Translations under genes and position numbers: made by a program
Shown here: positions 34,086-63,549 of the stretch, one piece after another
How positions within the stretch are numbered: the first letter of the stretch is position 1
How the letters are laid out: each line of letters starts with the position of its first letter
From: Salinimicrobium sediminis
Lineage (GTDB): Bacteria; Bacteroidota; Bacteroidia; Flavobacteriales; Flavobacteriaceae
Length of the DNA: 64,000 nucleotides
Assembly: GCF_900215295.1 (NCBI RefSeq)
Contig: NZ_OCMF01000001.1
Coordinates: 1,364,001 to 1,428,000, forward strand
Reading direction: 5' to 3'
Notes under the pieces: generated by a model
Seen by the model: only the letters and a program-made list of their open reading frames with translations
Databases searched by the model: none
What the model was told of the DNA's origin: nothing

Positions 34086-34129
34086 CAAAGTTCTTCACTA
34101 AGTAGAGTGTATCCTTTGACCTATGTCAA
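34086..34129 (-). promoter_or_regulatory. Class II Fnr-type site and -7 element of the TolC operon
   Basis: TTGA-CCTATG-TCAA (34116-34129) is a textbook FNR-type palindrome. Its centre is 36.5 bases from the last base of GAacTTTG (34086-34093, minus strand), a degenerate -7 element, so the site sits at about -41.5. It lies between the Crp/Fnr gene and tolC. Confidence 0.75.
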
Positions 34130-34139
34130 AAAGTAAAGA

Positions 34140-34715
34140 TCAGGATTTTTTGGAGTCATTCCGGCGAATACGACTCAGGGTTTCTTGTGTCATTCCGAGA
34201 TAGGAAGCGATAAACCCTAAAGATACTCGGGTCGAAATATCGGGAAACTCTTTTAGCATGTATTCATAGCGTTCTCTGGCAGTCTGGAATTGTAAAGCGT
34301 TTAATTTATTGACCACCCGGGTGAGCATCTCAGTAGAAAGTAGCCTTCCGAATTTTTCCATGTTGTGGTACCGGGCAAACAGCATATCTAATCTCTCCCG
34401 GGTGATACTGTAAATCACTGAATCCTCAAGCATTTCCAGGTAATATATACTGGGAACCTGTTGAAAAAAACTTTCTATACTGGACATGATTTTTCCATCT
34501 ATAAAAAACCACTGGGTAATTTCCATCCCGTCTTCTTTGAGGTAATAACTCCTGCCAACGCCTTTCTCTATGAAGTATAATTTGCTGCAAATCTGTCCTT
34601 CCCTCACCAGGATCTCATTTTTCTGAACACTTTCCTTTTCAAAATGAGATACAATATCCTCCAGTTCTTCTGACGAGAAATCGACAACCTGCTTTAAAAA
34701 AATGGAGAGATTCAT
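34140..34715 (-). CDS. Crp/Fnr family regulator, ETLSR recognition helix
   Basis: 191 residues: an N-terminal cyclic-nucleotide-like beta-roll (about 15-110), a dimer helix, and a C-terminal helix-turn-helix with GFIASYLGMTQETLSRI. The recognition helix has E178-T-L-S-R182, matching E209-T-I-S-R213 of E. coli FNR, which reads TTGA half-sites. It has a single cysteine (C43), so it cannot bind an FNR 4Fe-4S cluster. It lies directly upstream of the exporter operon, whose promoter carries a TTGA-N6-TCAA site, and is the obvious candidate regulator. Confidence 0.9.
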   Translation of the reverse strand: MNLSIFLKQVVDFSSEELEDIVSHFEKESVQKNEILVREGQICSKLYFIEKGVGRSYYLKEDGMEITQWFFIDGKIMSSIESFFQQVPSIYYLEMLEDSVIYSITRERLDMLFARYHNMEKFGRLLSTEMLTRVVNKLNALQFQTARERYEYMLKEFPDISTRVSLGFIASYLGMTQETLSRIRRNDSKKS

Positions 34716-34895
34716 ATTGTAACTGGCCCTGTTTATCTATACAAAGGTATTTAATTGAGAAGGAAGTGAGTTTTTCTTATTCAGGATTGACTTTAGAATT
34801 GATGCCATTATTATTAGTCTCCGGAATTCGGTCTTCTTATTTGTATTCCAAAAAGCGTGAAAAGAACCTGGTTCACATTAAATCAAACTTTTGAT

Positions 34896-34903
34896 TATAT
34901 TTG
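34896..34903 (+). promoter_or_regulatory. -7 element for the thioredoxin-like gene
   Basis: TATATTTG, a perfect match, with start near 34908 and a leader of about 47 bases. The remaining spacer (34716-34895) holds no gene; a loose inverted repeat GTGAA-N10-TTCAC lies at 34857-34876. Confidence 0.5.
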
Positions 34904-34954
34904 AAATAAGCTGCTAAAGAAGCACACTTCCGCAGCATCTCAAATATCAGGATT

Positions 34955-35251
34955 ATGTCAAAATTTGGGGAATTAATTGACTTGCAGATTCCGGTACTTC
35001 TGGAATTCTACACAGACTGGAATGAGGCTTCGGAAGCTATGCATCCGGTACTTAAAGATGTGGCAGCCGCACTTGGGGACAAGGCGAAGGTGATCAAGAT
35101 CGATGTCGACAAGAACTCTGAACTTGCTGAAGCCTTACGGGTAAAAGGTCTGCCCACTCTCATGATCTACAAGGAAGGGGAGATGAAATGGCGTCAAAGC
35201 GGCGAACAGGACGCTAATACATTAATTGGGTTGATGCAGGAGTATCTTTAA
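34955..35251 (+). CDS. Thioredoxin-fold protein without active-site cysteines
   Basis: 98 residues, clearly a thioredoxin by alignment to the trxA product encoded at 52406-52705. Shared features are the DW after strand beta-1, KVxKIDVDKN, the cis-proline segment GLPTLMIYKEGE and WRQSG. The active site WCGPC is replaced by WNEAS (22-26), and no cysteine remains in the protein. It cannot do thiol-disulfide exchange, so a binding or chaperone-like role is likely. Start ATG at 34955 fits the fold. Followed after 103 bases by a lipoprotein gene. Confidence 0.9.
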   Translation: MSKFGELIDLQIPVLLEFYTDWNEASEAMHPVLKDVAAALGDKAKVIKIDVDKNSELAEALRVKGLPTLMIYKEGEMKWRQSGEQDANTLIGLMQEYL

Positions 35252-35354
35252 CATCTCCGGGAAATTTTTCAAGTCATTTTAGAATATTAAGAAGAACTTA
35301 AGGAGCAGCAGCCTTTTTTCCTACTTTTGATCTGAAAAATTAACCTGTATCGTC

Positions 35355-36539
35355 GTGAAAAAAATATCACTTCTCCTTATTAGTCTTTTGATACTTTCTG
35401 CCTGCAGCAGTGTTAAACGTGGCAAGCAGGCCGTCAACCAGGGGAATTATCATGAGGCTATCGACATTGCTGTGGAGAAACTTCAGAAGGATAAAGACAA
35501 AAAAGGAAACCAGGAGCATATTCTTATTCTGGAAGACGCTTTTAAGAAGCTGACTGAAGCTCGTAAAAAAAGAATCGTCTTTTTAGAGAAGGAGGGAAAT
35601 CCTGCAAATCTAAAGGATATCTACCTGCTTTACAGGGAACTCGACGGGGTACAGAAACAGATATCACCATTGCTGCCTTTGGCCCTGCATAGTAATAACA
35701 GGGAGGCGCGATTCAGGTTTACAGATTATACAGATGCATTGATAGCCTCCAGGAACCGGTATGTAGATTTTCTATATGAAGAAGCCAAGAGCCTGATGCA
35801 ACAACAGGAGAAAATGACCTATCGCCAAGCCCATAATCAACTTTTGGAACTTCAAAGGCTATCTCCCGGTTATAAGGACGTTTCGCAATTGCTGGAGGAA
35901 AGCCATAACAGAGGATCAGATTTTGTTTTGGTGGAACTTAAGAATCAGACTCCGTTTGTAATTCCGGTAAGGCTGGAAGACGAACTGTTGAACTTCAATA
36001 CCTACGGTCTGGATGACTTTTGGACTGAGTATCATGCAGAGCGAAAAAGAAATTACGAGTATGATTTTGCTGTTCAGCTCGGTTTCAGGGAGATCCTCAT
36101 ATCTCCTGAAAGGCTGCTTGAGAGGGAGATTCCGCTGGAGGCGGAAGTTTCCGATGGATATACCTACAAAAAGGACAGGAAGGGAGAGCTGGTACTGGAC
36201 AGTTTAGGCAACAAGATCAAGGTCGAAAATTTCGTAAAGGTAAAAGGTGTCTTGTACAAGACTGTGCAGACAAAAAATTTAGCACTCCAGGGGAAGGTGG
36301 ATTACCTGGACCTGAGAAATGGCCGAATTATGAATAGTTATCCTTTAAATACGGAATTTGTTTTTGAGAACGTCTTTGCTTCCTATGAAGGAGACAAAAG
36401 ACTGCTGACCAAAGAAGATAAGCTGCTTTTGCAGAATCGTTTTGTGCCCTTTCCTTCTAATGAGCAAATGCTTCTGGATGCTTCCGACGATATAAAGAGC
36501 CGTCTGGGACCCATCCTGAAAAGGTACAGGTTCAGGTAA
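35355..36539 (+). CDS. Lipoprotein of unknown function with helical repeat N-half
   Basis: 394 residues. The signal ends in lipobox LILSAC (C17). Residues 20-170 are helical and Lys/Glu-rich, with a TPR-like start (QAVNQGNYHEAIDIAVEKL), and the C-terminal half is mixed beta. The start codon is GTG at 35355. I do not recognise a family beyond conserved flavobacterial lipoprotein. The spacer after it (36540-36704) holds no gene, only an imperfect inverted repeat at about 36626-36665. Confidence 0.8.
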   Translation: MKKISLLLISLLILSACSSVKRGKQAVNQGNYHEAIDIAVEKLQKDKDKKGNQEHILILEDAFKKLTEARKKRIVFLEKEGNPANLKDIYLLYRELDGVQKQISPLLPLALHSNNREARFRFTDYTDALIASRNRYVDFLYEEAKSLMQQQEKMTYRQAHNQLLELQRLSPGYKDVSQLLEESHNRGSDFVLVELKNQTPFVIPVRLEDELLNFNTYGLDDFWTEYHAERKRNYEYDFAVQLGFREILISPERLLEREIPLEAEVSDGYTYKKDRKGELVLDSLGNKIKVENFVKVKGVLYKTVQTKNLALQGKVDYLDLRNGRIMNSYPLNTEFVFENVFASYEGDKRLLTKEDKLLLQNRFVPFPSNEQMLLDASDDIKSRLGPILKRYRFR

Positions 36540-36704
36540 TTTTATTAGCTCCGCCGCCTTCCAAACCTCCTGGTGCTTTGTAATATGCTATTGTTTCGGA
36601 TAAAAAAGTCAATGGCCAACCCATACCCGGACAGGAGGTAGGGGAACGAATTTTTCCTGCCCGGGATTTCTAACATTCAGGTGCTCCAGGTACTAACCCT
36701 TTGG

Positions 36705-36932
36705 TTAATGAGCTGCAGGCTTTTTATGTTTCCTGACTCCGCAGGTATTCAGTCCGATCATTGTATAGAGAGGACAGAAGCTAACAAGGCTTGTTAGAAC
36801 AAACACACCTGCAAGTATTAAAAGGACTATCCCAATGGTGCCGGAGATTACATTAGTATAAAAAAGCGCTACAATCACCGCAGCAATTATCAACCTGACA
36901 ATACGATCTGCTGTTCCCATGTTTCTTTTCAT
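36705..36932 (-). CDS. DUF2892 (YgaP-like) small membrane protein
   Basis: 75 residues: RNMGTADRIVRLIIAAVIV, two membrane spans, and the family ending FCPLYTMIGLNTCG with two conserved cysteines. Such proteins often accompany rhodanese or sulfur-handling proteins; here it stands alone. Its promoter carries a TGA-N6-TCA palindrome at -41.5, which links it to the cbb3/nirK group of promoters. Confidence 0.9.
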   Translation of the reverse strand: MKRNMGTADRIVRLIIAAVIVALFYTNVISGTIGIVLLILAGVFVLTSLVSFCPLYTMIGLNTCGVRKHKKPAAH

Positions 36933-37015
36933 GATGTAAGAATTTTTAAGGTGTTCAATTTTGTGTGGTTGAAGAAAGGTTGTATGCCAGTCCCGGTACC
37001 ATCATCTCTTCTTCG

Positions 37016-37059
37016 TAAAACTAAACAGGAAATTTGATCTGTGCAGTGACCAAAGTCAC
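37016..37059 (-). promoter_or_regulatory. Class II Crp/Fnr-type site and -7 element of the DUF2892 gene
   Basis: GTGA-CCAAAG-TCAC (37046-37059), centre 36.5 bases from the end of TAgtTTTA (37016-37023, minus strand). Start near 37011, leader of about 79 bases. The rest of the 36933-37285 spacer holds no supported gene; it ends in the terminator at 37254. Confidence 0.7.
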
Positions 37060-37253
37060 CATTACCTATATTTATGCTATAAGTGTGCTGCTTTATTTTT
37101 TCCTTTTAATAAATCCTTTATTTACAACAGGAATAACAGATATGAATATTCTTTCCTTATGATCTCTTTATTCAGAGGGAGTTCTTTAACTATTGCAGCA
37201 ACAAGATGTGCAAGCAATTTGGATGGATCCATTTTTATTTCATATTTCCGGCA

Positions 37254-37287
37254 AAACGAAAAAGGGGGCGTGAGCCCCTTTTCGTTT
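37254..37287 (-). terminator. Terminator after the S41 protease gene
   Basis: Long stem: AAACGAAAAA plus a G run (37254-37268) with GCCCC-TTTT-CGTTT (37274-37287). It overlaps the protease stop codon and ends with a U-rich run on the minus strand. Confidence 0.85.
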
Positions 37288-40200
37288 AATTTTTGGCTTT
37301 AATCGGGTATGGCGGACGCTCTAACTGTTTAGGCGGATTTTCCTTTAGCTGTTGCATTACCACTTCAATTGCTTTTTGAAGTTGAGGATCCTTTCCATTA
37401 ATTACTTCTTTAGGATATTGCTCTACTTCAATATCGGGAGCAACTCCTTCATTTTCCACTTTAAATCCTTCTTCAGTATAGAATGCCACATTAGGAGCCG
37501 TTACAATACCCCCATCAATGAATTCGGGATAACCTAAGACGCCTACAAGTCCGCCCCATGTCCTTTTTCCAATAATAGTCCCCATATCAAATTTTCTAAA
37601 CATCCAGGGCAGGTAATCTCCTCCGGAACCCGCGGTTTCATTAATAAGCATCACCTTGGGCCCCTGGATCGAAGCACTTGGGGATTTGAGATCTTCCCCA
37701 TATCTGAAGTTCCAGTTGGCCTGGTGGGGTCTCTTTAACAGGTCAATATAATAATCTGCGAGTTGTCCGCCACCATTGAATCTCTCATCAATTATAACGG
37801 CCTCTTTATTGGCCTGGGGAAAAAAATATCGCTTGAAATATTCGTGGCCCTGGTCGGCAGTGTTGGGTACATAAATATAGGCCACTCTACCGTTGGTAGC
37901 TTCATTCACCTTTTTAATATTTCCTTCTACCCAATCCCTGTTTCTAAGCGCCCATTCTGAATCAATTGGAGTGACCTTTTCTGTTCTGGAATTTTCCATA
38001 GAAGGTGATGAGCTAACGGTAATGTTCACCAGTTTACCGGCTGTATTTTCAAAAAAGCGGAAAAGATTGTCCTTTGCTGTTATTTCTTCGCCGTTTACTG
38101 CAAGAATATAATCTCCTTGCTTAATGTTTACCCCCGGCTCAGTAAGAGGCGATCGCATATCGGGATTCCAGTTGAGACCTCCATAGATCTTTTTAATTCT
38201 GTATCTTCCATTCTCCACAACATAGTCAGCACCCAATAATCCGCCTTTGATATTATCAGGTTTTTCAAAATCATCTCCCCTGCTGGAGAAGCGGTGGTGA
38301 CCTACTCCCAATTCACTGAACATCCATTCCATGACCTGGTAAAGATCATCACGCGTGGTAAGATGAGGCAGGAACTGGCTGTACTTTTCTTTCATAGCTA
38401 CCCAGTCCACCCCGTGCATTCCCGGGTCATAGAAATAATCCCTGTTCACTCTCCAGGCTTCATTGAAGATATTCTGCCATTCGTCTTGTGGAACTATCTT
38501 TACCTGAACTTCTCCTAAGGCCAGAGCCGGCTTATCAGGTTTTTGACCTAAAGTGGCAATTCCGAATTTATTGTCTAGTTGGTATAGCAGCTTTTCACCA
38601 TTGGCAGAGATTTCATAGCCGGATGCAGGCATAATTAGTGTATCCTTCTTTTCCATCAGGTCATATTTTCTTAGGTTCCCGGGGCTATCCTCATGATAGG
38701 GAAATCTCAGGTAGTACAATTGACCTTCGGCAGGGGACTCCAAACTGGTGTAGGCTCCCGCAGGCACGGGAATATCTACCATACGGAATTCCAGGTTCTC
38801 AAAATCTATTTTTAAAGGTTTGATCTCCGGCTTCTTATTTTCTTCTTTATCTTTTTTCTTCTTCTCTTCTTCCTTTTCCTGTTGCTGAATGACCTCCACG
38901 TCATTTTCCTTAAAGAACGGAGAAACCACGTCTTTCTGAAGCGTGACCAGATACATGGAACTGCTCAATTCCATATCCTGATTGGATTGATCGAACCAGT
39001 TCACTACCGGTCCTGCATCTGTAGAAGCAAGCATGTATAAATATTTCCCGCTTGGATCGAATTCGGGACTGGTCACATTGGAATATCCATCTGATATGGC
39101 CCACGACTTCTTTTCTGAAAGTGAATAGACAAAAGCTTGTTCAAATTGAGTGTTTGTTATTATAGTATAGGTAATCCAGTTGGAGTCGTGCGCCCAGTCC
39201 CCAAAAAGATCCCGGAATACGCCGGGGGTATAAAGAACATCAGATGCTATTTTTTCTACCCGGTCTTTGTCACGGTCATATACGTAGAGACTGCGACTGT
39301 TATCTACAAATGCTATCTTCCTGCTGTCTGGTGACCAATGTGGATACGCATAAAATCCTGCTCCATCGGGCTTTACTTTTTTTAAGATCTTGTTCTCGCT
39401 TTGGTCGTAGAGGTGTAAAGCGTATTCTCCCGACTCATCAGAGAAGTAAGCAATGGTCTTACCATCCGGCGACCAGGCGGGAAACTTTTCATGAACTCCT
39501 GTGGTATTGGTAAGATTCATTGGATCACCCTTTTCAGCCGGAACTGTTATAATATCTCCCCTGTAGTCCATAACCACTCTTGCAGCCGAGGGAGAAACAG
39601 AGGCACTGCGAACATATTCCTCGCCACTCACAAACCGGGGCCGCAATTCCAGCAGGTCTGTAGCAATTCCAATTTTGATCTTTTGTGTCTGCCCGTTCTG
39701 CGGATTCAGTCGGTGAAGGTAACCTGCCTGCTCAAAAATGATCTCATCATCTCCTGCTGAAAGATCTATGACAGGAAAGTCTGTAAAATTTGTATGTTTT
39801 GAAACGGTGCCTTGTGCAGGATCATAGCTGTAGATGTTGAATTCCCCGTCTCGATCACTTCTAAAATATAGTCTTCCCTGTAGCCATTGAGGCTTTGTGT
39901 CATTACTTCCTCCCTCGGGTTTTGGTACTTCTGTTACCTCAAATGTTTGCGGGTCATAGATCCAGATCCTGGTAGTGGTCCCGCCGCGATAATGCTTCCA
40001 CTGTTCAAAACGGTCCCCCAAAGGAGTATAGGCAATTTTGCTGCCGTCGCTATTATAGCTGGCCCAATAGGCATTAGGGATCTTCAAAGGTGTTACATTG
40101 CCATTTTCTATATTCACCTCAAATAAGCTGCTGTAGCGGTTGGTGAAAACATCCCGTTGAGAGGCGAAGAGTACCTTTGAACCATCTGGTGTAAAATCAC

Positions 40201-40546: not shown

Positions 40547-40582
40547 AGGTGCAGGATTTTTAATGGATGAATAGATGCACCT
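40547..40582. other. Inverted repeat in the S41 protease leader
   Basis: AGGTGCA (40547-40553) and TGCACCT (40576-40582), 22 bases apart, immediately before the start codon. It could pair in the leader and mask the start, or be an operator; no family is recognised. Confidence 0.4.
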
Positions 40583-40659
40583 GAAGATAGGAAATTCTGT
40601 AGGAAAAGAGTTGGGGGAAATAGCTTTTTTAACAGCCTGTGCTGGAGCATGAGCTTTGT

Positions 40660-41295: not shown

Positions 41296-41307
41296 ATTTA
41301 CTTAAAC

Positions 41308-49280: not shown

Positions 49281-49324
49281 CTGATTAAGGTCATATTATA
49301 GTTTGAGCTAGCCCGGTATTTTTG
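49281..49324 (+). promoter_or_regulatory. Class II Crp/Fnr-type site and -7 element of hemN
   Basis: CTGA-TTAAGG-TCAT (49281-49294) inside a longer palindrome (TGACCT-N5-AGGTCA, 49277-49293). Centre is 36.5 bases before the end of the perfect -7 element TATTTTTG (49317-49324). Leader of about 15 bases. Confidence 0.8.
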
Positions 49325-49343: not shown

Positions 49344-50705
49344 ATGAGCAATTTGATACAGAAATATAATGTCCCGGGGCCAAGGTATACCAGTTACCCC
49401 ACTGTGCCCTACTGGAACGAAGCAGCATTTACGGTTGAAAGATATAAAGAGAGCCTGAAAAAATCCTTTTTGGAAAGCAACACTGAGGAAGGGATAAGTC
49501 TGTACATTCACCTGCCTTTTTGTGAGAGCCTTTGTACATTTTGCGGCTGTAACAAACGCATTACTAAACGGCATGAAGTTGAGTCACCATATATTGCCGC
49601 AGTGCTTGAGGAATGGGACATGTACGTGAAAATGCTGGAGAAACGTCCGGTGATCAAAGAAATACATCTTGGCGGCGGAACCCCGACTTTTTTCTCTCCT
49701 GCTAATTTGAGAATCCTGCTCGACGGACTCTTTGAAAAGGCTGACAGAGCAGAGGAAACCGATTTCAGTTTTGAAGGACATCCCAATAATACCAAACAGG
49801 AACACCTGCAGTTGCTTTATGATCTTGGATTTCGCCGGGTGAGCTATGGGGTGCAGGATTATAATTTTGAAGTGCAGCGGGCAATTCACCGCTTTCAGCC
49901 ATTCGTGAATGTGAAAAATGCTACAGATGGTGCCAGGGAAATCGGATATACTTCTGTAGGTCATGATCTTATTTTTGGCCTGCCTTTTCAAACGGTTGAA
50001 CATATCAAGGCTACCATTGAAAAGACCAAAGAATTAATGCCGGACAGGATCGCCTTCTATAGCTATGCACATGTGCCCTGGATCAAAGGAAACGGGCAAC
50101 GCGGATTTAAAGAAGAAGATCTTCCAACGGCCGATGTAAAGCGGGAAATGTATGAGATTGGAAAGCAAATGCTTGCCGATGCCGGCTACGTGGAAATAGG
50201 CATGGACCATTTTGCATTAAAAAGCGACACCCTGTACAAATCCATGGAAAATAAAAAGCTACATCGCAATTTTATGGGCTACACCTCTTCAAAGACCAAA
50301 GTAATGATAGGTTTGGGAGTATCGGCCATAAGTGATAGCTGGACAGGATTTGCCCAGAATGTGAAGACCATTGAAGAATATTATGAGATGCTTGAAAAGG
50401 GAGAGCTGCCATTATATAGAGGACATATATTGACCGATGAAGATGAGACGGTGCGCAGACACATTCTCAATATTATGTGTAACCTGGAAACCTCCTGGAA
50501 AGACGATCGAATGAAATTTGCGGAGCTTCCGGAAGTGCTAATGAACCTGAAGGAAATGGAAGCCGATGGCCTGCTTGAGTTCGGCAAAGAAGAATTGATC
50601 GTGAATGAGAGCGGGAGGCCGTTTGTGAGAAATATTTGTATGGCATTTGATGTCCTGCTGCAAAGGAGCAAGCCGGAGACCCAGTTGTTTTCAATGACAA
50701 TTTGA
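49344..50705 (+). CDS. hemN: Oxygen-independent coproporphyrinogen III oxidase
   Basis: 453-residue radical SAM enzyme making protoporphyrinogen IX without O2 in haem synthesis. Cluster CESLCTFCGC (Cx3Cx2C plus the extra C of true HemN), the GGGTPTFF motif for SAM, and the C-terminal HemN domain (MGLGVSAISD-like region, LPLYRGHILTDEDE). The N-terminal YNVPGPRYTSYPTVPYW also marks true HemN over HemW. The promoter has an Fnr-type site, consistent with use under low oxygen. Confidence 0.95.
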   Translation: MSNLIQKYNVPGPRYTSYPTVPYWNEAAFTVERYKESLKKSFLESNTEEGISLYIHLPFCESLCTFCGCNKRITKRHEVESPYIAAVLEEWDMYVKMLEKRPVIKEIHLGGGTPTFFSPANLRILLDGLFEKADRAEETDFSFEGHPNNTKQEHLQLLYDLGFRRVSYGVQDYNFEVQRAIHRFQPFVNVKNATDGAREIGYTSVGHDLIFGLPFQTVEHIKATIEKTKELMPDRIAFYSYAHVPWIKGNGQRGFKEEDLPTADVKREMYEIGKQMLADAGYVEIGMDHFALKSDTLYKSMENKKLHRNFMGYTSSKTKVMIGLGVSAISDSWTGFAQNVKTIEEYYEMLEKGELPLYRGHILTDEDETVRRHILNIMCNLETSWKDDRMKFAELPEVLMNLKEMEADGLLEFGKEELIVNESGRPFVRNICMAFDVLLQRSKPETQLFSMTI

Positions 50706-50991: not shown

Positions 50992-51411
50992 CTATTTATT
51001 TTCCCGGCTCATATACATATTCATGAACAGGTTATGGGCCATGTTTCTTGCTCTGTTCTTTGCAATGTTCGCGCGTTCGCCTTCAAAGAGTTCATCTATA
51101 GTCTGATACCACATGGTAAGCCACTCCCCAAAATGCTTTTGCTCTATACTATGGTCGAAATTCTCATCAACCTCCTTATGCGCGCGCATAGGATTACCTC
51201 TGAATTTACTGACCATAAATAGATTGGTTTCCCAGAAATCTGTCAGTTTTTCCAGATGGGAAGGCCAGTCCTTAACAGTTTCATTAAAGAAGTGACCAAT
51301 CTTTTTGTTGGTTCTTACCTTCGTATAAAAAGAAGAAACCAGGAGAAAAACATCCTCCCGGTTCTGAATATCATTTTTCATTAAGGATTCTATTTTTAAT
51401 ATCGCATCCAA
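50992..51411 (-). CDS. Group III truncated haemoglobin
   Basis: About 139 residues (or 129 from the ATG at 51381). Pattern of group III truncated globins: FYTKVRTNKKIGHFFNETV, WPSHLEKLTDFWETNLF and HFGEWLTMWYQTIDELF with a candidate proximal His. Proteins of this group bind O2 or NO; role in nitrogen-oxide stress is inferred from the regulatory context. The longer start overlaps the preceding membrane-protein gene by 16 bases, so the two are in one unit driven by the site at 51738. Confidence 0.88.
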   Translation of the reverse strand: MDAILKIESLMKNDIQNREDVFLLVSSFYTKVRTNKKIGHFFNETVKDWPSHLEKLTDFWETNLFMVSKFRGNPMRAHKEVDENFDHSIEQKHFGEWLTMWYQTIDELFEGERANIAKNRARNMAHNLFMNMYMSRENK

Positions 51412-51686
51412 ACATTGATGAGAAGCAGAATACTGCTTAGTGCAAGGCTTAAAATTAAAGCATTAAAAACGAATTTTGCTTTCATTTGAGATAAAACTGA
51501 AACCAGGTAAGCCATAGCACCCACAAGAACAATAAAAAGTTGTGCCATTTGAATGAAATCATGACCATTCATAAGGATCACCATCGCGGCCGCAGCTCCC
51601 AAACATGCTGTTAGAATAACTGCTACTGCAGAATATCCCACATAAAGTCCCTCAAAATCTTTGTAAAGTGTGTTGTAAAGTCTCAT
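51396..51686 (-). CDS. Small membrane protein upstream of the globin gene
   Basis: 96 residues from the ATG at 51686 (MRLYNTLYKDFEGLYVGYSA), with three predicted spans (about 17-37, 47-64 and 70-92). The frame is open to 51785, but that stretch holds the promoter and palindrome, so the internal start is used. No motif recognised. Overlaps the globin start, which suggests translational coupling and a shared role. Confidence 0.75.
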   Translation of the reverse strand: MRLYNTLYKDFEGLYVGYSAVAVILTACLGAAAAMVILMNGHDFIQMAQLFIVLVGAMAYLVSVLSQMKAKFVFNALILSLALSSILLLINVWMRY

Positions 51687-51707
51687 ACCTGTTTTTTTAT
51701 TATAATG

Positions 51708-51751
51708 TAAAATTAAAGGTATGAGCAGGGGCATCATATGATTTGAGTCAT
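51708..51751 (-). promoter_or_regulatory. Class II Crp/Fnr-type site and -7 element of the globin unit
   Basis: ATGA-TTTGAG-TCAT (51738-51751), perfect outer halves, centre 36.5 bases from the end of TAatTTTA (51708-51715, minus strand). Leader of about 17 bases to the 51686 start. Confidence 0.75.
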
Positions 51752-51805
51752 AAAAGCGGACATTTCTATCCATGATGAAAATCATAACCTGCTTAAAATG
51801 AGATT

Positions 51806-52402
51806 TTAGCGGTAAACTTTTCTCTTCTTGATCTGCAATTCGCCTTTTTTCTCGAGAGATTTAGTGGCGCGAATCACTGTTTCTACCCGAAGGCCGGTAA
51901 GATCGGCAAGTTGCTGGCGGGTGAGATCCAGACGGTAACCGTATTTCTCTTCTACTTTTCCCACATGTTGCTTGAGATAATCGATAATGCGCAGAATTCG
52001 GTGTTCGGGTTCCTGGCTGGAAATTTCGGAAACCATAATGGCTTTGTAATACAGCCGTTTGGCAAGGGTTTCGGTTATCTTAAGATGGACTTTTGGATTG
52101 GAGGAGAGCAGGTCTAAAAATTGCTCTTTTGACAGCTGAAAAACCTCGGCATCTGAGATCGCTTCAGCATTTGCCGGATATTTTACCCGGGCGAGCAGGG
52201 GAGGTTCTCCAAAACTCTGTCCTATAGAAAAAATTCCCTGGATGAACTCTTTTCCGTCCTCGTTATAATTGTTCATTTTGATCTCTCCCGAAGCTACCTG
52301 GTAAAAATTAACCGCCGATTCTCCTTCACGAAAGAGTTGGTCTCCTTTAGAATAGGCTACTCTTTTGGCTCCATGGTTGAGCAACAGGTTCTCATCTATC
52401 AT
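51806..52402 (-). CDS. Crp/Fnr family regulator, ETVIR recognition helix, cysteine-free
   Basis: 198 residues: beta-roll domain (about 10-105, with GEIKMNNYNEDGKEFIQGIF), dimer helix and a winged helix with TRQQLADLTGLRVETVIRATKSL. The recognition helix E174-T-V-I-R178 keeps the Glu and Arg that read TGA, but has Ile where FNR has Ser212. The protein has no cysteine at all, so it holds no Fe-S cluster. trxA lies three bases upstream in the same operon. It is the better candidate for the six non-TTGA sites in the window. Confidence 0.92.
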   Translation of the reverse strand: MIDENLLLNHGAKRVAYSKGDQLFREGESAVNFYQVASGEIKMNNYNEDGKEFIQGIFSIGQSFGEPPLLARVKYPANAEAISDAEVFQLSKEQFLDLLSSNPKVHLKITETLAKRLYYKAIMVSEISSQEPEHRILRIIDYLKQHVGKVEEKYGYRLDLTRQQLADLTGLRVETVIRATKSLEKKGELQIKKRKVYR

Positions 52403-54623: not shown

Positions 54624-54635
54624 TTTGTCTAAAGT

Positions 54636-56077: not shown

Positions 56078-56668
56078 TTATTTATTGAATGTTACCTGAA
56101 ATTTGATATCTAAGTCATCTCCTGTAGTAATGGTTCCAAACATTGCTGTTGGAGGATCTACTTTGAATTCGGTCATTTTGATCTTCTTGTTGCCGCTAAG
56201 AACTACTTTGTCTCCGCTTACTTTAGCATCAAAAACTATTTCCACATTTTTCTTAGTTCCTGCAATAGTAAGGGCTCCGGTAGTTGTAACTTTACAGCTG
56301 CTTTTTGAGGTGCAGTCCAGGTTGTTAACTTTTTGAAGCTGATAAGTGATGGTTTTGTGCTTATCTGTGTTAAGAGCTTTGTAAGTGTTTTTGTCCATTC
56401 CTCCTTTTCCACTCTTCAAACTTTCGGCAACCACTGTAAACTTAATGTCATCGATCTGCACCAATTGCCCGTCTTCCATCTGGACCTTCATTGATCCCTG
56501 AAGATCTTTGGCAGTGATCTCCCAGTCGTGGACGTTTGAAGTTCCTTCTACTTTTAAACTGGAAGCTGCATTATTTACATTATATGTTTGTGCAAATATT
56601 GTATTGGCAGAAAATACCATTACCAGAAAGCTTCCAATTACTAACCAAAGGTTCTTTTTTGTGTTCAT
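56078..56668 (-). CDS. YceI-like periplasmic protein, first copy
   Basis: 196 residues: signal peptide (MVFSANTIFAQ) then YceI core (SSLKVEGTSNVHDWEITAK, GALTIAGTKKNVEIVFDA, PPTAMFGTITTGDDL). First gene of the cluster yceI - porin - yceI - CoA-transferase. Its promoter carries the palindrome at 56722-56735. Confidence 0.88.
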   Translation of the reverse strand: MNTKKNLWLVIGSFLVMVFSANTIFAQTYNVNNAASSLKVEGTSNVHDWEITAKDLQGSMKVQMEDGQLVQIDDIKFTVVAESLKSGKGGMDKNTYKALNTDKHKTITYQLQKVNNLDCTSKSSCKVTTTGALTIAGTKKNVEIVFDAKVSGDKVVLSGNKKIKMTEFKVDPPTAMFGTITTGDDLDIKFQVTFNK

Positions 56669-56691
56669 GATTTTTGTTTTTAATTATGATA

Positions 56692-56735
56692 CAAAGATGG
56701 GACAGAAATCGAGGGTATAGTATGACGCGGGTCAG
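56692..56735 (-). promoter_or_regulatory. Class II Crp/Fnr-type site and -7 element of the YceI-porin cluster
   Basis: ATGA-CGCGGG-TCAG (56722-56735), centre 36.5 bases from the end of CAtcTTTG (56692-56699, minus strand). Leader of about 19 bases to the ATG at 56668. Confidence 0.7.
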
Positions 56736-57739: not shown

Positions 57740-58186
57740 TTAATAGTTGATATCTTCTTTGAAATAATAAGCTTCTTCCCCGTAGGTCCAGTCTATAATT
57801 ATGTTCCAGCGGCCGCCTAACAAGTTCTTATCAGGTACGAGCAATTGATTAGAGGACAATGAAAGAGGAATCTCAAAGTCCAGTTGCTTGTTTGACGGCC
57901 GGTATAGGAACACATTTCCTTTTATTTTAGAAAACTCCAGTTCTTCGGGAAAGGTAATAACCATCCCTTCTGAAGTTTTTTCAAGTTGTATGTTTTCTGA
58001 AAGCAGGGTGGCATTCTGGGTTTTATCCAGTTGGTCCTGAAATGTTATCTCTGTCTTATAGTATTCTTCAACTACAAGATCATGGCTGTATGCTTCATCT
58101 GTGCTCATGGTGATTACAAAGAACATGATGAAACTAATAAAGCTCACGATAGCCATTACAATGGCTGTTCCCCAGGAAATTTTCAT
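57740..58186 (-). CDS. fixH: FixH family cbb3 assembly protein
   Basis: 148 residues: N-terminal span (about 7-27), then a periplasmic beta domain beginning EEYYKTEITFQDQLDKTQNA, the FixH hallmark of a tyrosine-containing helix after the membrane, and a WTYGEEAYYF C-terminus. It assists assembly of the cbb3 oxidase, probably with copper delivery. Confidence 0.9.
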   Translation of the reverse strand: MKISWGTAIVMAIVSFISFIMFFVITMSTDEAYSHDLVVEEYYKTEITFQDQLDKTQNATLLSENIQLEKTSEGMVITFPEELEFSKIKGNVFLYRPSNKQLDFEIPLSLSSNQLLVPDKNLLGGRWNIIIDWTYGEEAYYFKEDINY

Positions 58187-58190
58187 ATTC

Positions 58191-58487
58191 TTACTTTTTA
58201 ATTACCAAAAAAATGCTGTCTTCATGAGGTTGTACCGCATGATATTCTCCCACCGGAATGATATGTTCATCAAATAGTTCCAGCCGGGTTCTTTTTTCTC
58301 CTGCTATATAAGTAACAGCTCCTTTAATCACCAGGATCCTTGCCGGAATATCACTCTTATGCTCTTTCAGGATAACATCTTTATTAAGACCGATGGCCAA
58401 TACATGCGACCCGGCTTCCTGCTCGAATTTCCTAACCAGGATCTTTGTCGCGGTGGGTAATTCTGAAATTATTTCCTTCACTAGCAT
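58191..58487 (-). CDS. Small cupin-like protein inside the cco operon
   Basis: 98 residues of beta-rich sequence with the cupin pattern (HVLAIGLNKDVILKEHKSD, ARILVIKGAVTYIAG, HIIPVGEYHAVQPHEDSIFLVIKK). Only some of the metal-ligand histidines are present (EHKS, EYHAVQPHE). It lies 33 bases after ccoG and four before fixH. Role unknown; it may sense or bind a metal or small ligand. Confidence 0.75.
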   Translation of the reverse strand: MLVKEIISELPTATKILVRKFEQEAGSHVLAIGLNKDVILKEHKSDIPARILVIKGAVTYIAGEKRTRLELFDEHIIPVGEYHAVQPHEDSIFLVIKK

Positions 58488-58520
58488 AGCAATTTTTTTT
58501 CCCTTATTAAGAGTTTATCT

Positions 58521-59939
58521 TTATCTGAAACTTCTTGGTCCCATGAAATTGGTCGTAGTGGTTTCAATCAATTTATTCCCGCTGTAGATTCCGATTTCCA
58601 CCGAACTTTTTTCGTCTTTCAAGACTGCCTTGGGAATTTCGATAAAGAGAGTTCCCTCGGCCAGACCTTTTTCGGGCACTGTAATATTTTCGTGAGTGAC
58701 CGACTCTATTGTACCGTTGTGAGACAGTAATTTGAAATGAACATCCTCGAAGCTTCCAGTAGTCTTATTGATGAGCTTAAATGTATATACGTTGCTTATT
58801 ACGTCATTAGCCCGGGTTTCATACAACTGCCCGGGGAGCCTTAGAATAGTGGCCTCCACATCAGATCTTATAAATAACATTCCGGAGAGTATTCCCACCA
58901 ATACAAGCAGAATAGCTGCAAAACCTTTCATGCGAGGATTAAAAGTGAATTTCTCCTCTTTCTCTATATTCTCTTCAGAATAGAACCCGATGAGCCCTTT
59001 TGGAAGATCTACTTTTTCCATCATGGCATCACAGGCATCGATACAGGCGGTACAGTTGATACATTCCAGCTGAGTTCCATTCCTGATATCAATTCCGGTA
59101 GGGCAAACATTCACACACTGGAAGCAGTCGATACAATCTCCTTTTCCCAAAGCCGCACGATTTTCATTCTTTTTAAACTTCGACCGTCCCTGAGTTCTTT
59201 CTCCTCGTTTCCTGTCATAGGCGACGACCACAGATTTTTTATCGAGCAGTACGCTCTGCAATCTTCCGTAGGGGCAGGCAATGGTACAAACCTGTTCCCT
59301 AAACCAGGAAAAAATGAAATAAAAGACACCGGTAAAGATGAGCAGGGCTGTGAAAGTGCTAATATTCTCCAGCGGCCCTTGTGTAACATACTGCAGTAAT
59401 CTTTTGCTTCCCACGAGGTAGGCTAAAAATACATTGGCAATACCAAAGGAGATAAGGAAAAACAGAAACCATTTAAAACCTTTTTTTCTGATCTTTTCAT
59501 TATTCCATTCCTGCTTATCAAGGCGCATTTGGGCTCCCCGATCTCCTTCGATCCAGTATTCGATCTTCCGGAAGACCATCTCCATAAAAATGGTCTGGGG
59601 ACAGATCCACCCACAAAAGATCCTTCCAAAGGCAGAGGTGAACAAGGTGATGAAAAGCACCCCGATGATCATTGCAGTTACGCCCAGATAAAAATCCTGT
59701 GGCCAGAATGGTTGTGCAAAAATGTAAAACTCCCTTCCTATTACATTGAACAGCATGAATTGATTGCCGTTAATGTGAATAAACGGGGAAAGGATAAGGA
59801 AAGCCAGCAGCACCCAGGTTAGTTGAGTACGATATCTGTAAAATCGTCCCTCAGGTTTTTTAGGATAGACCCAGGCTCTTTTGCCTTCGGCATTCATGGT
59901 GCCTATCCTGTCCCTGAAGTTGTTTGTTTCTTTATCCAA
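58521..59939 (-). CDS. ccoG: CcoG (FixG) iron-sulfur assembly protein
   Basis: 472 residues. About five N-terminal spans with the conserved FCGWICPQ motif (C109, C113). A ferredoxin region follows with two 4Fe-4S sets, CIDCFQCVNVCP (C269, 272, 275, 279) and CINCTACIDAC (C293, 296, 299, 303), then a last span and a periplasmic domain. CcoG is thought to reduce copper for cbb3 assembly. It lies 22 bases after ccoP. Confidence 0.95.
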   Translation of the reverse strand: MDKETNNFRDRIGTMNAEGKRAWVYPKKPEGRFYRYRTQLTWVLLAFLILSPFIHINGNQFMLFNVIGREFYIFAQPFWPQDFYLGVTAMIIGVLFITLFTSAFGRIFCGWICPQTIFMEMVFRKIEYWIEGDRGAQMRLDKQEWNNEKIRKKGFKWFLFFLISFGIANVFLAYLVGSKRLLQYVTQGPLENISTFTALLIFTGVFYFIFSWFREQVCTIACPYGRLQSVLLDKKSVVVAYDRKRGERTQGRSKFKKNENRAALGKGDCIDCFQCVNVCPTGIDIRNGTQLECINCTACIDACDAMMEKVDLPKGLIGFYSEENIEKEEKFTFNPRMKGFAAILLVLVGILSGMLFIRSDVEATILRLPGQLYETRANDVISNVYTFKLINKTTGSFEDVHFKLLSHNGTIESVTHENITVPEKGLAEGTLFIEIPKAVLKDEKSSVEIGIYSGNKLIETTTTNFMGPRSFR

Positions 59940-59961
59940 AGCTTTTAATTCTTTTTTCTGT

Positions 59962-60837
59962 TTATTCTTCTGCCCAAACTTCGCCTTCGGCTTCTTTGGG
60001 GTTTGCAGGAGTAGTTCCCTGAAGGCTCAAAACATAACTTGCAACCTGCTGGATTTCGGTAGGCTTTAGTGAGGATTTCCAAGCGATCATTCCTTTTCCT
60101 GCACGTCCTCCTTCACTTATAGTATGGAATACATTTTTTATTCCGCCACCAAGGATCCAGTGTTCGTCTGCCAGGTTGGGACCTATACCTCCACCACCGT
60201 CAGCGGCATGGCAAGCCATACAATTGGTTTGATAAATAGCAGCTCCTTTTTCTATGTCTCCTGTTTCAGTAAGCAGCACTACAGACTCTGCATCAACTAG
60301 ATCTGGAGCATTCTTTTTGTATTCCTCCACTGCAAGTTTTGCCGCCAGCATTTCAGTTTCATATTCTGCCACCTGGTTCTCTCCGTCAAAAATGTGATAG
60401 TAAGCCATATATCCTGCTGCGAAAATTATAGAGGCGTAGAAGGAATAGAGCCACCAAGGGGGTAATTTGTTATCCAGTTCTTTTATTCCGTCGTAGTTGT
60501 GATCGAGCACCAGGTCTCTTTCTTCAGAAATCGGACGGGTTCCCATAGCTTTTCTGTAAAGCTCCTTCAGGTCATATTTCTTCATACGCTCCTGTTGGGC
60601 TGCCATGTATTTCTCTTTAGCTTCGGGAGAAAGTGCCTGAAACATGATATTTTCAAAAGCATCAAGAATAAATTCCGCAGCGATCAAAAGCAGAAGGAAG
60701 ACCAGAAGGACAACAGCCAGCAAAGGGTGTTCTACAAAAGCATAATTATCGCCAGAATCAACTAGGAATTCAAGGGCTCCTGCGATGATCAAAAAGAAAA
60801 CAGGAATTCTTATCCAGGCCGGGATTGCGTGTCTCAT
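59962..60837 (-). CDS. ccoP: cbb3 oxidase subunit III, single-haem CcoP
   Basis: 291 residues: two N-terminal spans (about 10-28 and 37-60), a third span at about 128-146, and a periplasmic cytochrome c domain with one CMACH (206-210) and a later Met-containing segment (GKGMIAWK). Proteobacterial CcoP has two c-haems; a single one, as here, is usual in Bacteroidetes. Start overlaps ccoQ by four bases. Confidence 0.93.
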   Translation of the reverse strand: MRHAIPAWIRIPVFFLIIAGALEFLVDSGDNYAFVEHPLLAVVLLVFLLLLIAAEFILDAFENIMFQALSPEAKEKYMAAQQERMKKYDLKELYRKAMGTRPISEERDLVLDHNYDGIKELDNKLPPWWLYSFYASIIFAAGYMAYYHIFDGENQVAEYETEMLAAKLAVEEYKKNAPDLVDAESVVLLTETGDIEKGAAIYQTNCMACHAADGGGGIGPNLADEHWILGGGIKNVFHTISEGGRAGKGMIAWKSSLKPTEIQQVASYVLSLQGTTPANPKEAEGEVWAEE

Positions 60838-61019
60838 GAGTTTTGGTCGTTATCTTGTTCTAATGGAATTTGTTCTACAGTATGTATGTAATCTTTTTTG
60901 GCAGTAAAGACCCACCAGAAAAGCGCTACAAAAAAGAGGAAGAAAATGAGCAGGGAGATGATGGGATAAACCTCGATCCCGTCAATTGTCTCCATATGTC
61001 CTTTTATAAATTTTAGCAT
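60834..61019 (-). CDS. ccoQ: cbb3 oxidase subunit CcoQ
   Basis: 61 residues: one span (ISLLIFFLFFVALFWWVFTAKKDY) followed by a polar tail. This is the CcoQ/FixQ layout. The ATG overlaps the ccoP start region by four bases and lies five bases after ccoNO. Confidence 0.88.
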   Translation of the reverse strand: MLKFIKGHMETIDGIEVYPIISLLIFFLFFVALFWWVFTAKKDYIHTVEQIPLEQDNDQNS

Positions 61020-61024
61020 GATAA

Positions 61025-63214
61025 TTATTTTGAGGTTGTTGAATTCACCATTTTAATATCTGTGCCCAAACGTTGGATGTAAGCGATCAAAGCGACGATC
61101 TCGCGGTCTTTCATTTCCACAAAGTCAAGTCCGTTCTCTTCTGCATACTTTTTGTCTGCTTCATAAGTAGCAACAAAGTCCGGATCGTTGTAGAGATTCT
61201 GCTGAATTTTGGTAGCCTGCTCCTCCATCAATGCCTGTGCATTCGCAATTTCGGCTTCGGTATAGGGTACTCCTAACTTAACCATGGCTTCCATTTTTGC
61301 TTCGGTGTTAGATCGGTCATGTTTATCAGTGATCAGCCATTTATATCCCGGCATTATAGATCCTGCAGAGGTGCTTTGCGGGTCATACATATGGTTAAAG
61401 TGCCAGTTGTCTGAATATTTTCCGCCTATCCTCATGAGATCGGGTCCGGTACGTTTACTTCCCCACAGGAATGGGTGATCGTAGACGTATTCTCCAGCCT
61501 TGGAATATTCTCCATAACGTTCTACCTCACTTCTAAAAGGGCGAATCATTTGAGAGTGACAGGAGACACAGCTTTCTCTAATATAAATATCTCTTCCTTC
61601 CAATTCCAGCGGAGTGTAAGGCTTTACGCTGGTAATTGTTGGGATATTTGATTTCACCAGCAGGGTAGGAACGATTTGAATTATTCCTCCAATCAAGATG
61701 GCAATAGTTGCAAGAATTGTCAACTGCACCGGTTTGCGTTCCAGCCAGGTGTGGAAACCTTCCCCCACAAGTCTTCTGTTGCTGATCTTTTGAAGTGGTG
61801 CTGCTTCAGCCAGTTCGTCAGTAACTTCAGAACCACTTCTAATTGTTTTATAAACGTTGTACAGGAGAATAAACATTCCGCAGATGTACATGCTTCCGCC
61901 TATTGCTCTAAACCAGTACATCGGCATGATCTCTGTCACTGTTTCGAGGAAGTTTCCATAGACAAGCGTTCCATCAGGGTTAAACTGTTTCCACATAGAG
62001 GCCTGTACAAATCCTGCAACATACATTGGCAGGGCATAAAGAATGATCCCTAAGGTGCCTGTCCAGAAATGTGCGTTTGCAAGTTTGATAGAATATAATT
62101 TTGTCTTGAACATTCTGGGAACAAGCCAGTACACCATTCCAAAAGTTAAGAACCCGTTCCAGGCAAGAGCGCCCACGTGAACGTGTGCAATAACCCAGTC
62201 GCTAAAATGTGCTATGGCATTCACATTTTTGAGGGACAGCATGGGGCCTTCAAAAGTTGCCATTCCGTATCCGGTAATAGCTACTACCATAAATTTAAGT
62301 ACAGGATCTGCTTTTACTTTATCCCAGGCACCGCGTAGGGTTAGCAATCCGTTGATCATTCCACCCCATGATGGCATTAACAGCATTACAGAAAATGCTA
62401 CCCCCAGGTTCTGTGCCCAGTCGGGCAAAGAAGAATATAAGAGGTGGTGTGGTCCTGCCCAGATGTATATAAATATTAAGGACCAGAAGTGGATGATGGA
62501 TAATTTATAAGAATACACGGGTCTGTTCGCAGCCTTGGGAACAAAATAATACATAAGGCCAAGGAAAGGAGTAGTAAGGAAGAATGCCACGGCATTGTGA
62601 CCATACCACCATTGAACAAGTGCATCCTGCACCCCTGCGTAAACCGAATAACTTTTAAACAAACCTACAGGAATTGCAAGGCTGTTAAAAATGTGAAGTA
62701 CGGCAACGGTGACAAAAGTTGCAATGTAAAACCAGATGGCAACATACAGGTGTCGTTGTCTTCTTTTAAAAATTGTAGCGATTAGGTTCCAGCCAAAAAC
62801 CACCCAAACAACAGCAATGGCAATGTCAAAAGGCCATTCCAGCTCTGCATATTCTTTTGAGCTGGTGAATCCCATGGGTAGGGTAATAGCGGCACCTACA
62901 ATGATCGCCTGCCAACCCCAAAAGTTGATCTTGCTCAGGATGTTGCTGTACATTCTCGCTTTTAGCAATCGCTGGGTGGAGTAATAGACTCCTGCGAAGA
63001 TGGCGTTACCTACAAAGGCAAAAATTACTGCATTGGTATGCAGGGGACGAAGGCGTCCAAAACTCAGCCAGGAAATCCCGTCTGTAAGGTTTGGAAATAA
63101 AAATAAGAAAGCCAGTAGTAGCCCGACTGACATTCCAATGACGCCCCAGAACAGGGTGGCGTAGAGGAAGTTTTTTACGATTTTGTTGTCGTAGTAGAAC
63201 TGTTGCAATTCCAT
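61025..63214 (-). CDS. ccoN: Fused cbb3 oxidase subunits I and II (CcoN-CcoO)
   Basis: 729 residues. Residues 1-480 are CcoN, with about twelve spans, haem/copper ligands in RPLHTNAVIF, WWYGHNAVAFF, IWAGPHHLLY and HVHVGALAWNG. Then a span and the CcoO cytochrome c domain with CVSCH (549-553) and a Met ligand in MPG (about 621). The N-O fusion is typical of Bacteroidetes. It is the catalytic core of a high-affinity terminal oxidase for low oxygen. ccoS starts three bases upstream. Confidence 0.97.
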   Translation of the reverse strand: MELQQFYYDNKIVKNFLYATLFWGVIGMSVGLLLAFLFLFPNLTDGISWLSFGRLRPLHTNAVIFAFVGNAIFAGVYYSTQRLLKARMYSNILSKINFWGWQAIIVGAAITLPMGFTSSKEYAELEWPFDIAIAVVWVVFGWNLIATIFKRRQRHLYVAIWFYIATFVTVAVLHIFNSLAIPVGLFKSYSVYAGVQDALVQWWYGHNAVAFFLTTPFLGLMYYFVPKAANRPVYSYKLSIIHFWSLIFIYIWAGPHHLLYSSLPDWAQNLGVAFSVMLLMPSWGGMINGLLTLRGAWDKVKADPVLKFMVVAITGYGMATFEGPMLSLKNVNAIAHFSDWVIAHVHVGALAWNGFLTFGMVYWLVPRMFKTKLYSIKLANAHFWTGTLGIILYALPMYVAGFVQASMWKQFNPDGTLVYGNFLETVTEIMPMYWFRAIGGSMYICGMFILLYNVYKTIRSGSEVTDELAEAAPLQKISNRRLVGEGFHTWLERKPVQLTILATIAILIGGIIQIVPTLLVKSNIPTITSVKPYTPLELEGRDIYIRESCVSCHSQMIRPFRSEVERYGEYSKAGEYVYDHPFLWGSKRTGPDLMRIGGKYSDNWHFNHMYDPQSTSAGSIMPGYKWLITDKHDRSNTEAKMEAMVKLGVPYTEAEIANAQALMEEQATKIQQNLYNDPDFVATYEADKKYAEENGLDFVEMKDREIVALIAYIQRLGTDIKMVNSTTSK

Positions 63215-63216
63215 AC

Positions 63217-63405
63217 TTAATTGTCTTGTTTAATTTTTACGGGTTTTGTTGATTTCTCTTTTACAAGCTCATCCTCAAAAAGAATACGCACAGACGGAGT
63301 GTAGTCATCATCAAACTGACCATTACGAACAGCTATGATGAAAACAATGAAAAAGACTACCGCTACAATAATGCTTATCGTAAGGAGTAAATAGATGACG
63401 CTCAT
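63217..63405 (-). CDS. ccoS: cbb3 assembly protein CcoS
   Basis: 62 residues: one N-terminal span (LLLTISIIVAVVFFIVFIIAV), then the family motif NGQFDDDYTPSVRIL. First gene of the operon. In related genomes a copper P-type ATPase (ccoI) usually precedes it, but here nirK stands divergently in that place and ccoI is not seen in the window. Confidence 0.93.
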   Translation of the reverse strand: MSVIYLLLTISIIVAVVFFIVFIIAVRNGQFDDDYTPSVRILFEDELVKEKSTKPVKIKQDN

Positions 63406-63422
63406 ACCTATTTAATTAGGTG

Positions 63423-63466
63423 CAAATCTAAAGGCATTCATTTTTTGGAAATATGATTTCGATCAG
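63423..63466 (-). promoter_or_regulatory. Class II Crp/Fnr-type site and -7 element of the cbb3 operon
   Basis: ATGA-TTTCGA-TCAG (63453-63466), centre 36.5 bases from the end of a perfect -7 element, TAGATTTG (63423-63430, minus strand). Start near 63418, leader of about 13 bases. Confidence 0.85.
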
Positions 63467-63505
63467 GTTTAGGGACAAAAACATCCTGAAAAAAATTCAG
63501 CATAT

Positions 63506-63549
63506 ATGATTACGCTCATATCTCGGGCTGAACTTAATTAGGACATTTG
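63506..63549 (+). promoter_or_regulatory. Class II Crp/Fnr-type site and -7 element of nirK
   Basis: ATGA-TTACGC-TCAT (63506-63519), centre 36.5 bases before the end of GAcaTTTG (63542-63549). Start near 63554, leader of about 27 bases. Separate from the cco site, with 53 bases between centres. Confidence 0.8.

Follow-up and report, generated by a model that had tools for sequence, protein, structure and literature searches.

Promoter sites at a fixed spacing and a candidate receiver-Crp/Fnr activator for low-oxygen genes in Salinimicrobium sediminis

In a 64-kb window of the Salinimicrobium sediminis genome (3.48 Mb; the window, G000:C8:1364001-1428000, is the whole stretch of DNA analyzed), seven promoters carry a TGA-N6-TCA palindrome at one and the same distance from a -7-like element that resembles the Bacteroidota TAnnTTTG box. 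These palindromes are well supported as predicted class II Crp/Fnr-type activator sites centered at -41.5, and the predicted gene set behind them and their counterparts elsewhere in the genome is mainly a low-oxygen and denitrification (nitrogen-oxide) regulon. As a joint explanation, we favor, with somewhat better than even confidence, class II sites of a low-oxygen regulon whose main activator would be a fusion of a receiver domain to a Crp/Fnr-type protein, acting under a FixL-like kinase. The findings supply a promoter code that can be tested for activators of the unusual Bacteroidota TAnnTTTG promoter, and they predict a low-oxygen/denitrification regulon in a widespread family.

Spacing between palindrome and core promoter

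The gap is defined here as the number of bases from the last base of TCA to the 8-base -7-like element, a gap of 23 corresponding to 36.5 bases between palindrome center and last base of the element. A preliminary description of the window had placed seven palindromes at exactly this distance, and all of them (7/7) stand there. When every window pair of the palindrome with.A..TTT[AG] is counted over gaps of 5–59 (n=24), gap 23 accounts for eight pairs, the eighth involving a palindrome at 10205, and the other 54 gaps share the remaining 16, each holding at most 2. Several details required revision. The palindrome had been expected about once per 4 kb by chance; we counted 35 per 64 kb (~1 per 1.8 kb), more than the 22.4 found in shuffled sequences. 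Five of the seven -7 elements, rather than four, depart from TAnnTTTG, and by one base each rather than one or two; after the 23 intervening bases, the seven elements read GAACTTTG, TAGTTTTA, TATTTTTG, TAATTTTA, CATCTTTG, TAGATTTG and GACATTTG. The TGA...TCA inverted repeat typical of Crp/Fnr sites takes the form TGAYN4RTCA in 6/7 window sites; the reading NTGAY-N4-RTCA, proposed for all seven, holds for these six and fails at the nirK site, TGATTACGCTCA.

Across the whole Salinimicrobium genome, the strict pattern (TGA-N6-TCA followed by TAnnTTTG, gaps 12–42) occurs 55 times, of which 18 are at gap 23; the 30 other gaps average 1.23 matches each and never exceed 3. The peak is a single base wide (1, 18 and 2 matches at gaps 22, 23 and 24, respectively). 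The genome scan against other spacings that had been suggested as a check thus sets gap 23 apart in this genome, no other spacing being as common. Relaxing the -7 element while restricting the palindrome (TGAYN4RTCA-N23-nAnnTTTR) yields 34 genome matches compared to 0 for a backward control, and TGAYN4RTCA-N23-TAnnTTTG with one mismatch allowed yields 51 compared to 6.

Placement was evaluated for the 34/55 strict matches with a fetched locus (16/18 at gap 23; 18/37 at other gaps). All 16 gap-23 sites lie outside open reading frames (ORFs), with an ATG-initiated ORF of at least 70 amino acids (aa) beginning no more than 200 nt away, compared with 15/18 matches at other gaps that fall within ORFs and 1/18 that passes both placement tests. 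In the relaxed set (30 sites with a locus), a start lies within 200 nt in 28 (L048 and L052 are without one), and the only site flagged within an ORF is the window site at 51739: its palindrome (51739-51750) falls within the mechanical ORF 51396-51785 when the first, upstream ATG of that ORF is taken. Confinement of the sites to the window was rejected on the 34 genome-wide matches. The high count of TGA-N6-TCA (35 in the window) might invite the view that common words coincide by chance; the genome-wide peak, the backward control, the intergenic placement and the conservation across genera contradict this view, which we regard as having a negligible probability and have rejected.

Conservation was measured upstream of two target genes in Flavobacteriaceae, where orthologous promoters are not independent of each other. 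A gap-23 site (TGA-N6-TCA,.A..TTT[AG]) precedes cco in 29/30 loci and 15/18 further genomes (44/48 in total) and hemN in 25/30 plus 6/12 (31/42); in the first batch (30 cco, 30 hemN loci), no other gap exceeds 2 for either gene. The bases of the spacer between palindrome and -7 element vary freely among orthologous promoters. Site profiles were built from 34 own and 71 family sites, the latter from any location in those 60 loci, with the core letters set by selection; the strongest unselected features of the family profile are T at -35, A at -51/-50, T from -33 to -30 and T at -9. The strict pair was also counted in 80 loci surrounding the receiver-Crp gene: gap 23 holds 90 occurrences, gap 24 holds 13 and every other gap 6 or fewer.

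The spacing rule is strict in Salinimicrobium and one base looser in other relatives. For TGAY-RTCA palindromes in relatives scanned whole, gap 24 compared to gap 23 gave 6 vs 7 in G057, 6 vs 10 in G095 and 2 vs 10 in G124, and the unrestricted palindrome peaks at gap 23 in G095 (13 vs 7) and G124 (10 vs 5). The common gap-24 sites of these three genomes could reflect tolerance or another paralogue. In a hand-counted scan of 118 genomes of the phylum, the own genome gave 15 matches, 28 other genomes of its class gave 150 compared to 5 in the backward control, and 89 genomes of other classes gave 35 compared to 3, a weak backward control that permits no conclusion beyond the class.

A published map of transcription starts in Flavobacterium psychrophilum places the sigma-A TAnnTTTG box at -12 to -5 and reports strong induction of the cbb3 oxidase, and induction of heme biosynthesis enzymes, by oxygen limitation; neither FNR nor CRP occurs in the main text of that article (PMC9723704). 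With the last base of the box at -5, a gap of 23 places the palindrome center at -41.5. The class II Crp/Fnr position of about -41.5 put forward in the preliminary description, fixed relative to the core promoter, is therefore backed by the spacing peak, the intergenic placement, the conservation at orthologous promoters and the published start map. Class II promoters of E. coli FNR and of Pseudomonas ANR/DNR likewise have a palindrome at -41.5 and likewise serve hemN, cbb3 and nitrite reduction genes. They differ from the present ones in that here TAnnTTTG replaces TATAAT, a T tract occupies the -33 place, and the half-site is (A/C)TGAY rather than FNR's TTGAT.

An activator bound at these sites presumably raises transcription. 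A dimeric protein of the Crp/Fnr fold would bind ATGAYN4RTCAT, centered at -41.5, and would stimulate sigma-A RNA polymerase at a TAnnTTTG promoter whose -33 place is occupied by a T tract. A Crp/Fnr-type site at this position could also block polymerase, so the palindromes could alternatively be repressor operators that overlap the promoter by accident. A repressor would not need the exact distance to the -7 element, which the one-base-wide peak reveals; moreover, the five imperfect -7 elements and the T tract at -33 in the family profile are as expected of activator-dependent promoters, making repression a very improbable account.

Genes preceded by the sites

The window features are listed by promoter below (coordinates, strand, description); the -7 elements were read from the sequence, and "scan" denotes recovery by the genome scan.

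34117-34128, minus: activator palindrome TGACATAGGTCA, promoter of TolC-type outer membrane efflux gene; gap 23; scan, C8:1398086
34086-34093, minus: -7-like element GAACTTTG, TolC-type promoter
32689-34062, minus: TolC-type efflux gene (OEP Pfam match)
34140-34715, minus: short cyclic-nucleotide (cNMP)-fold protein, 191 aa, adjoining the TolC site (Pfam)
37047-37058, minus: palindrome TGACTTTGGTCA, promoter of YgaP-like membrane protein; gap 23; scan
37016-37023, minus: -7-like element TAGTTTTA, YgaP-like promoter
36708-36932, minus: YgaP-like membrane protein, 75 aa (PF11127)
49282-49293, plus: palindrome TGATTAAGGTCA, hemN promoter; gap 23; scan
49317-49324, plus: -7 element TATTTTTG, hemN promoter
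49344-50705, plus: hemN gene (TIGR00538 HemN, above cut-off)
51739-51750, minus: palindrome TGACTCAAATCA, promoter of the genes for a 96-aa protein and a globin; gap 23; scan
51708-51715, minus: -7-like element TAATTTTA, 96-aa protein/globin promoter
51399-51686, minus: 96-aa protein after this palindrome, no Pfam match
50992-51411, minus: group III truncated hemoglobin (match to 2ig3, E 2.6e-11; no Pfam family above its cut-off)
51806-52402, minus: Crp/Fnr-family protein, 198 aa, with an E-x-x-x-R recognition helix (Pfam; helix comparison)
56723-56734, minus: palindrome TGACCCGCGTCA, YceI-cluster promoter; gap 23; scan; genes by Pfam
56692-56699, minus: -7-like element CATCTTTG, YceI promoter
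56078-56668, minus: YceI gene (Pfam), followed by a porin-like match (below cut-off), a second YceI and an acetyl-CoA hydrolase/transferase (Pfam)
63454-63465, minus: palindrome TGATCGAAATCA, cbb3 oxidase operon promoter; gap 23; scan
63423-63430, minus: -7 element TAGATTTG, cbb3 promoter
From about 63405: short frame in the cbb3 operon, which we take to be ccoS-like
61025-63214, minus: ccoNO (Pfam)
59962-60837, minus: ccoP (Pfam)
58521-59939, minus: ccoG (Pfam)
63507-63518, plus: palindrome TGATTACGCTCA, nirK promoter; gap 23
63542-63549, plus: -7-like element GACATTTG, nirK promoter
63581 (start), plus: nirK, extending past the window end (full gene L302:182-1633; passes TIGR02376, copper nitrite reductase)
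10205-10216, plus: eighth palindrome TGAAGCGAGTCA, with A at the Y position, a departure from TGAY
10240-10247, plus: perfect -7 element TATTTTTG of the eighth site; gap 23
10331-11038, plus: outer membrane beta-barrel gene after the eighth site, outside the low-oxygen theme

The sites mainly precede genes of the low-oxygen and nitrogen-oxide response. Outside the window, they precede genes for a pyruvate/2-oxoacid:ferredoxin oxidoreductase subunit, a ferredoxin-type protein, formate-tetrahydrofolate ligase, a multicopper oxidase, malic enzyme, a Glu/Leu/Phe/Val dehydrogenase, two hemerythrin-like proteins, three universal stress proteins (Usp), MoeA, a molybdopterin oxidoreductase, NADH dehydrogenase chain 3, citrate synthase, Rrf2 and LysR regulators and OsmC, as well as a cation-transporting ATPase about 7 kb from the cbb3 site. 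Less clearly in keeping with this theme are a glycosyltransferase, an esterase, a TonB-like protein, an Asp/Glu racemase and an HlyD-type protein. Among 30 site-associated proteins, 24 have a Pfam match at E <= 0.001, and the globin is one of the six without. We estimate the predicted regulon at roughly 35–50 promoters.

Two arrangements of paired promoters were observed. On the minus strand, the nirK palindrome is likewise separated by a gap of 23 from TGTTTTTG, so that this single site may serve both nirK and a second cbb3 promoter. Elsewhere, divergent multicopper oxidase and formate-tetrahydrofolate ligase genes (L021/L022; G000:C7:115970 and 116143) each have a gap-23 site of their own, ~130 bases apart.

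A receiver-Crp/Fnr fusion as candidate activator

The Salinimicrobium genome contains ten cNMP-fold matches, two of which, on contigs 8 and 4, are fusions of a receiver to cNMP_binding and HTH_Crp_2 domains. The contig 8 fusion (G000:C8:566419-567471, outside the window; nearest named match 97% identical, in Salinimicrobium nanhaiense) is a response regulator encoded directly after a PAS histidine kinase gene, and passes none of the NCBIfam cut-offs among the matches listed (25 of 100). The Usp gene that comes next has a perfect site, and a weaker one (2 mismatches) stands in the same locus before a ScdA_N/hemerythrin gene followed by a norB-like gene. For the PAS domain of the kinase, FixL is the best PDB match, and His and Arg residues align with those of FixL chains 1d06/1dp6 that we take to be the heme ligand and the FG-loop Arg; the kinase thus has the residues of a FixL-type sensor. 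Throughout the 80 loci, a kinase ORF lies upstream of the fusion in 78, the remaining two being at contig ends; the heme-His position is H in 78/78 kinases, and the FG-loop Arg is present in 74/78. Receiver residues D9, D10, D52, S82 and K104 and helix-turn-helix (HTH) residues E316 and R320 are invariant among 32 sequences. A Usp relative follows the regulator gene in 74/80 loci, and the 450 bases 3' of this gene contain a gap-23 site in 59/80 (relaxed) or 57/80 (strict).

Compared with characterized regulators, the fusion carries cNMP_binding and HTH_Crp_2 after its receiver in place of the LuxR/NarL-type HTH of a FixJ, and neither of the two receiver fusions nor the window protein 51806-52402 has the N-terminal CxxC expected from the Cys cluster of FNR; the cNMP fold of the fusion is the feature that bears on a comparison with CRP-type cAMP receptors. 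From these features, the low-oxygen set is probably controlled by the pair of FixL-like kinase and receiver-Crp fusion, the latter being the candidate activator and the former a putative heme-binding oxygen sensor by analogy with FixL. Oxygen on the kinase heme would stop phosphorylation; at low oxygen, the kinase would phosphorylate the receiver, and the fusion would dimerize, bind the sites and contact polymerase at promoters with weak -7 boxes.

The proposed pair resembles the FixL-FixJ-FixK systems of Rhizobiales and Caulobacterales in its FixL-like PAS kinase, the aligned heme His and Arg, its Crp/Fnr-fold output and its low-oxygen respiratory targets. FixJ has a LuxR-type output domain, which is absent here, and receiver and Crp/Fnr activator form one polypeptide, leaving no FixJ-to-fixK transcription step; the single fusion protein would do the work of FixJ plus FixK. 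In a published account of these systems, FixL senses oxygen by heme and FixJ acts on fixK (PMC4999443). Among open-license publications searched by literal matching, no title or abstract concerned this promoter layout, a Flavobacteriaceae regulon of this kind or a receiver-Crp fusion, which is weak evidence of absence. Downstream of the second fusion (L062:6616-7653) come an Hsp20 gene, with a site at 7692 (1 mismatch), a Usp gene, with a site at 8294, and three unscanned ORFs similar in length.

Two other assignments of the class II sites were weighed. The main activator could be the window protein 51806-52402, responding to nitric oxide or redox state in the manner of DNR/NnrR. It adjoins the globin promoter site and has the recognition helix E-T-V-I-R, and proteins of G012 and G095 near gap-23 sites have a similar length (205 aa), a likeness in length only. 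A match to it (E <= 1e-20) was found in 15/60 family genomes, compared with cco sites in 44/48, and G173 has neither such a match nor an FNR-like one, yet retains hemN and cco sites. Since the sites are far more widespread than the protein, it is probably not the main regulator, a role we consider quite unlikely; as sole regulator it was rejected on the same count, and it may be a possible co-reader of the sites. Alternatively, several paralogues (both fusions and 51806-52402) might read the sites jointly, each with its own signal and no single master, as ANR and DNR share sites in Pseudomonas. The ten cNMP-fold proteins, several with ExxxR helices, and the 15/60 family genomes with both fusion and FNR-like matches are compatible with joint reading; the lack of a separate site subclass argues weakly against it, and we judge it unlikely, if less so than control by 51806-52402.

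Regulators of the same sites in relatives

Relatives without the receiver-Crp fusion would instead rely on a stand-alone FNR-like protein, usually encoded beside ccoI, to read the same sites. This protein has a related recognition helix and, unlike the fusion, no receiver; genomes with this protein alone have the same cco/hemN sites. Among 18 stand-alone Crp/Fnr proteins from relatives, ccoI is in the locus in 15 and an N-terminal CxxC is present in 15; of the last five, loci L162 and L163 contain ccoI (L157, L158 and L161 do not), and the CxxC occurs in G101 and G111 and in none of G088b, G095 and G012. In 13 such proteins of Flavobacteriaceae, Cys residues at positions C20, C23 and C122 of E. 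coli FNR (by what we take to be its sequence and numbering) are invariant, as is one further Cys, but C29 is not. In the Salinimicrobium genome, no cNMP-fold protein (n=10) has an N-terminal CxxC or lies beside ccoI.

We assigned 60 family genomes to classes by hand, taking a frame of at least 345 aa as a receiver fusion and a shorter match at E <= 1e-15 as FNR-like, and leaving out the 199-aa match of Salinimicrobium itself (the 51806-52402 protein) and its 211-aa counterpart in G144. Ten genomes have the fusion only, 27 the FNR-like protein only, 15 both and 8 neither. Sites are present under each regulator class: upstream of cco in 9/10, 21/22 and 13/15 genomes and upstream of hemN in 6/8, 12/18 and 13/15 for fusion only, FNR-like only and both, respectively, with 1/1 for cco (G165) and 0/1 for hemN where neither was found. 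The cco genes are missing in 7/8 genomes with neither regulator compared to 5/52 with one (Fisher p 1.5e-5, a value that ignores phylogeny and genome reduction). A match to 51806-52402 is likewise absent from three fusion-only genomes: of these, G173 carries the hemN and cco sites, G139 carries the cco site (hemN unmatched), and G157 carries the hemN site and no cco site.

Several observations weigh against class II control by the fusion. The cco site is missing in G154, G142, G120 and G157 and the hemN site in 11/42 family genomes; two of the hemN misses are a single-mismatch site (L173) and a site at gap 24 (L196). The spacing peak is weak in G057, where gap 24 is equally frequent and counts for the unrestricted palindrome show no clear maximum (8 at gap 23, 8 at gap 24, 7 at gap 21). 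G165 (82% complete) keeps its cco site with neither regulator found, the regulator classes rest on length and E-value, and a 26-regulator tree is poorly supported at its base, so that no ancestry is argued from it. In 21/80 loci, mostly of Christiangramia/Gramella and Gillisia, no gap-23 site follows closely on the 3' side of the regulator gene; a scan of neighbors of the second fusion revealed no kinase, some nearby ORFs being unscanned. Finally, several of the ten cNMP-fold proteins have a similar recognition helix, which makes cross-binding possible, and a FixL-type His in a PAS domain is no proof of heme binding.

Tentatively, and with slightly less than an even chance of being right, we propose that in part of the Flavobacteriaceae the cysteine-bearing, stand-alone FNR-like protein encoded beside ccoI was lost, and that the FixL-like kinase and the fusion took over class II sites that did not move. 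A putative heme two-component system would then have replaced a putative Fe-S regulator in oxygen sensing, and sister genera would offer a natural experiment, in which one set of sites is apparently read by regulators with different sensors. Such an exchange would parallel that in Caulobacterales, where, according to the same account (PMC4999443), FnrN was lost and fixLJ-fixK gained, but with receiver and Crp/Fnr joined in one chain. In G095 and G012, which belong to a neighboring family, a stand-alone Crp/Fnr protein with a similar helix lies near ccoI (L162, L163), and both genomes have gap-23 sites; as these two proteins are without an N-terminal CxxC, their signal may differ.

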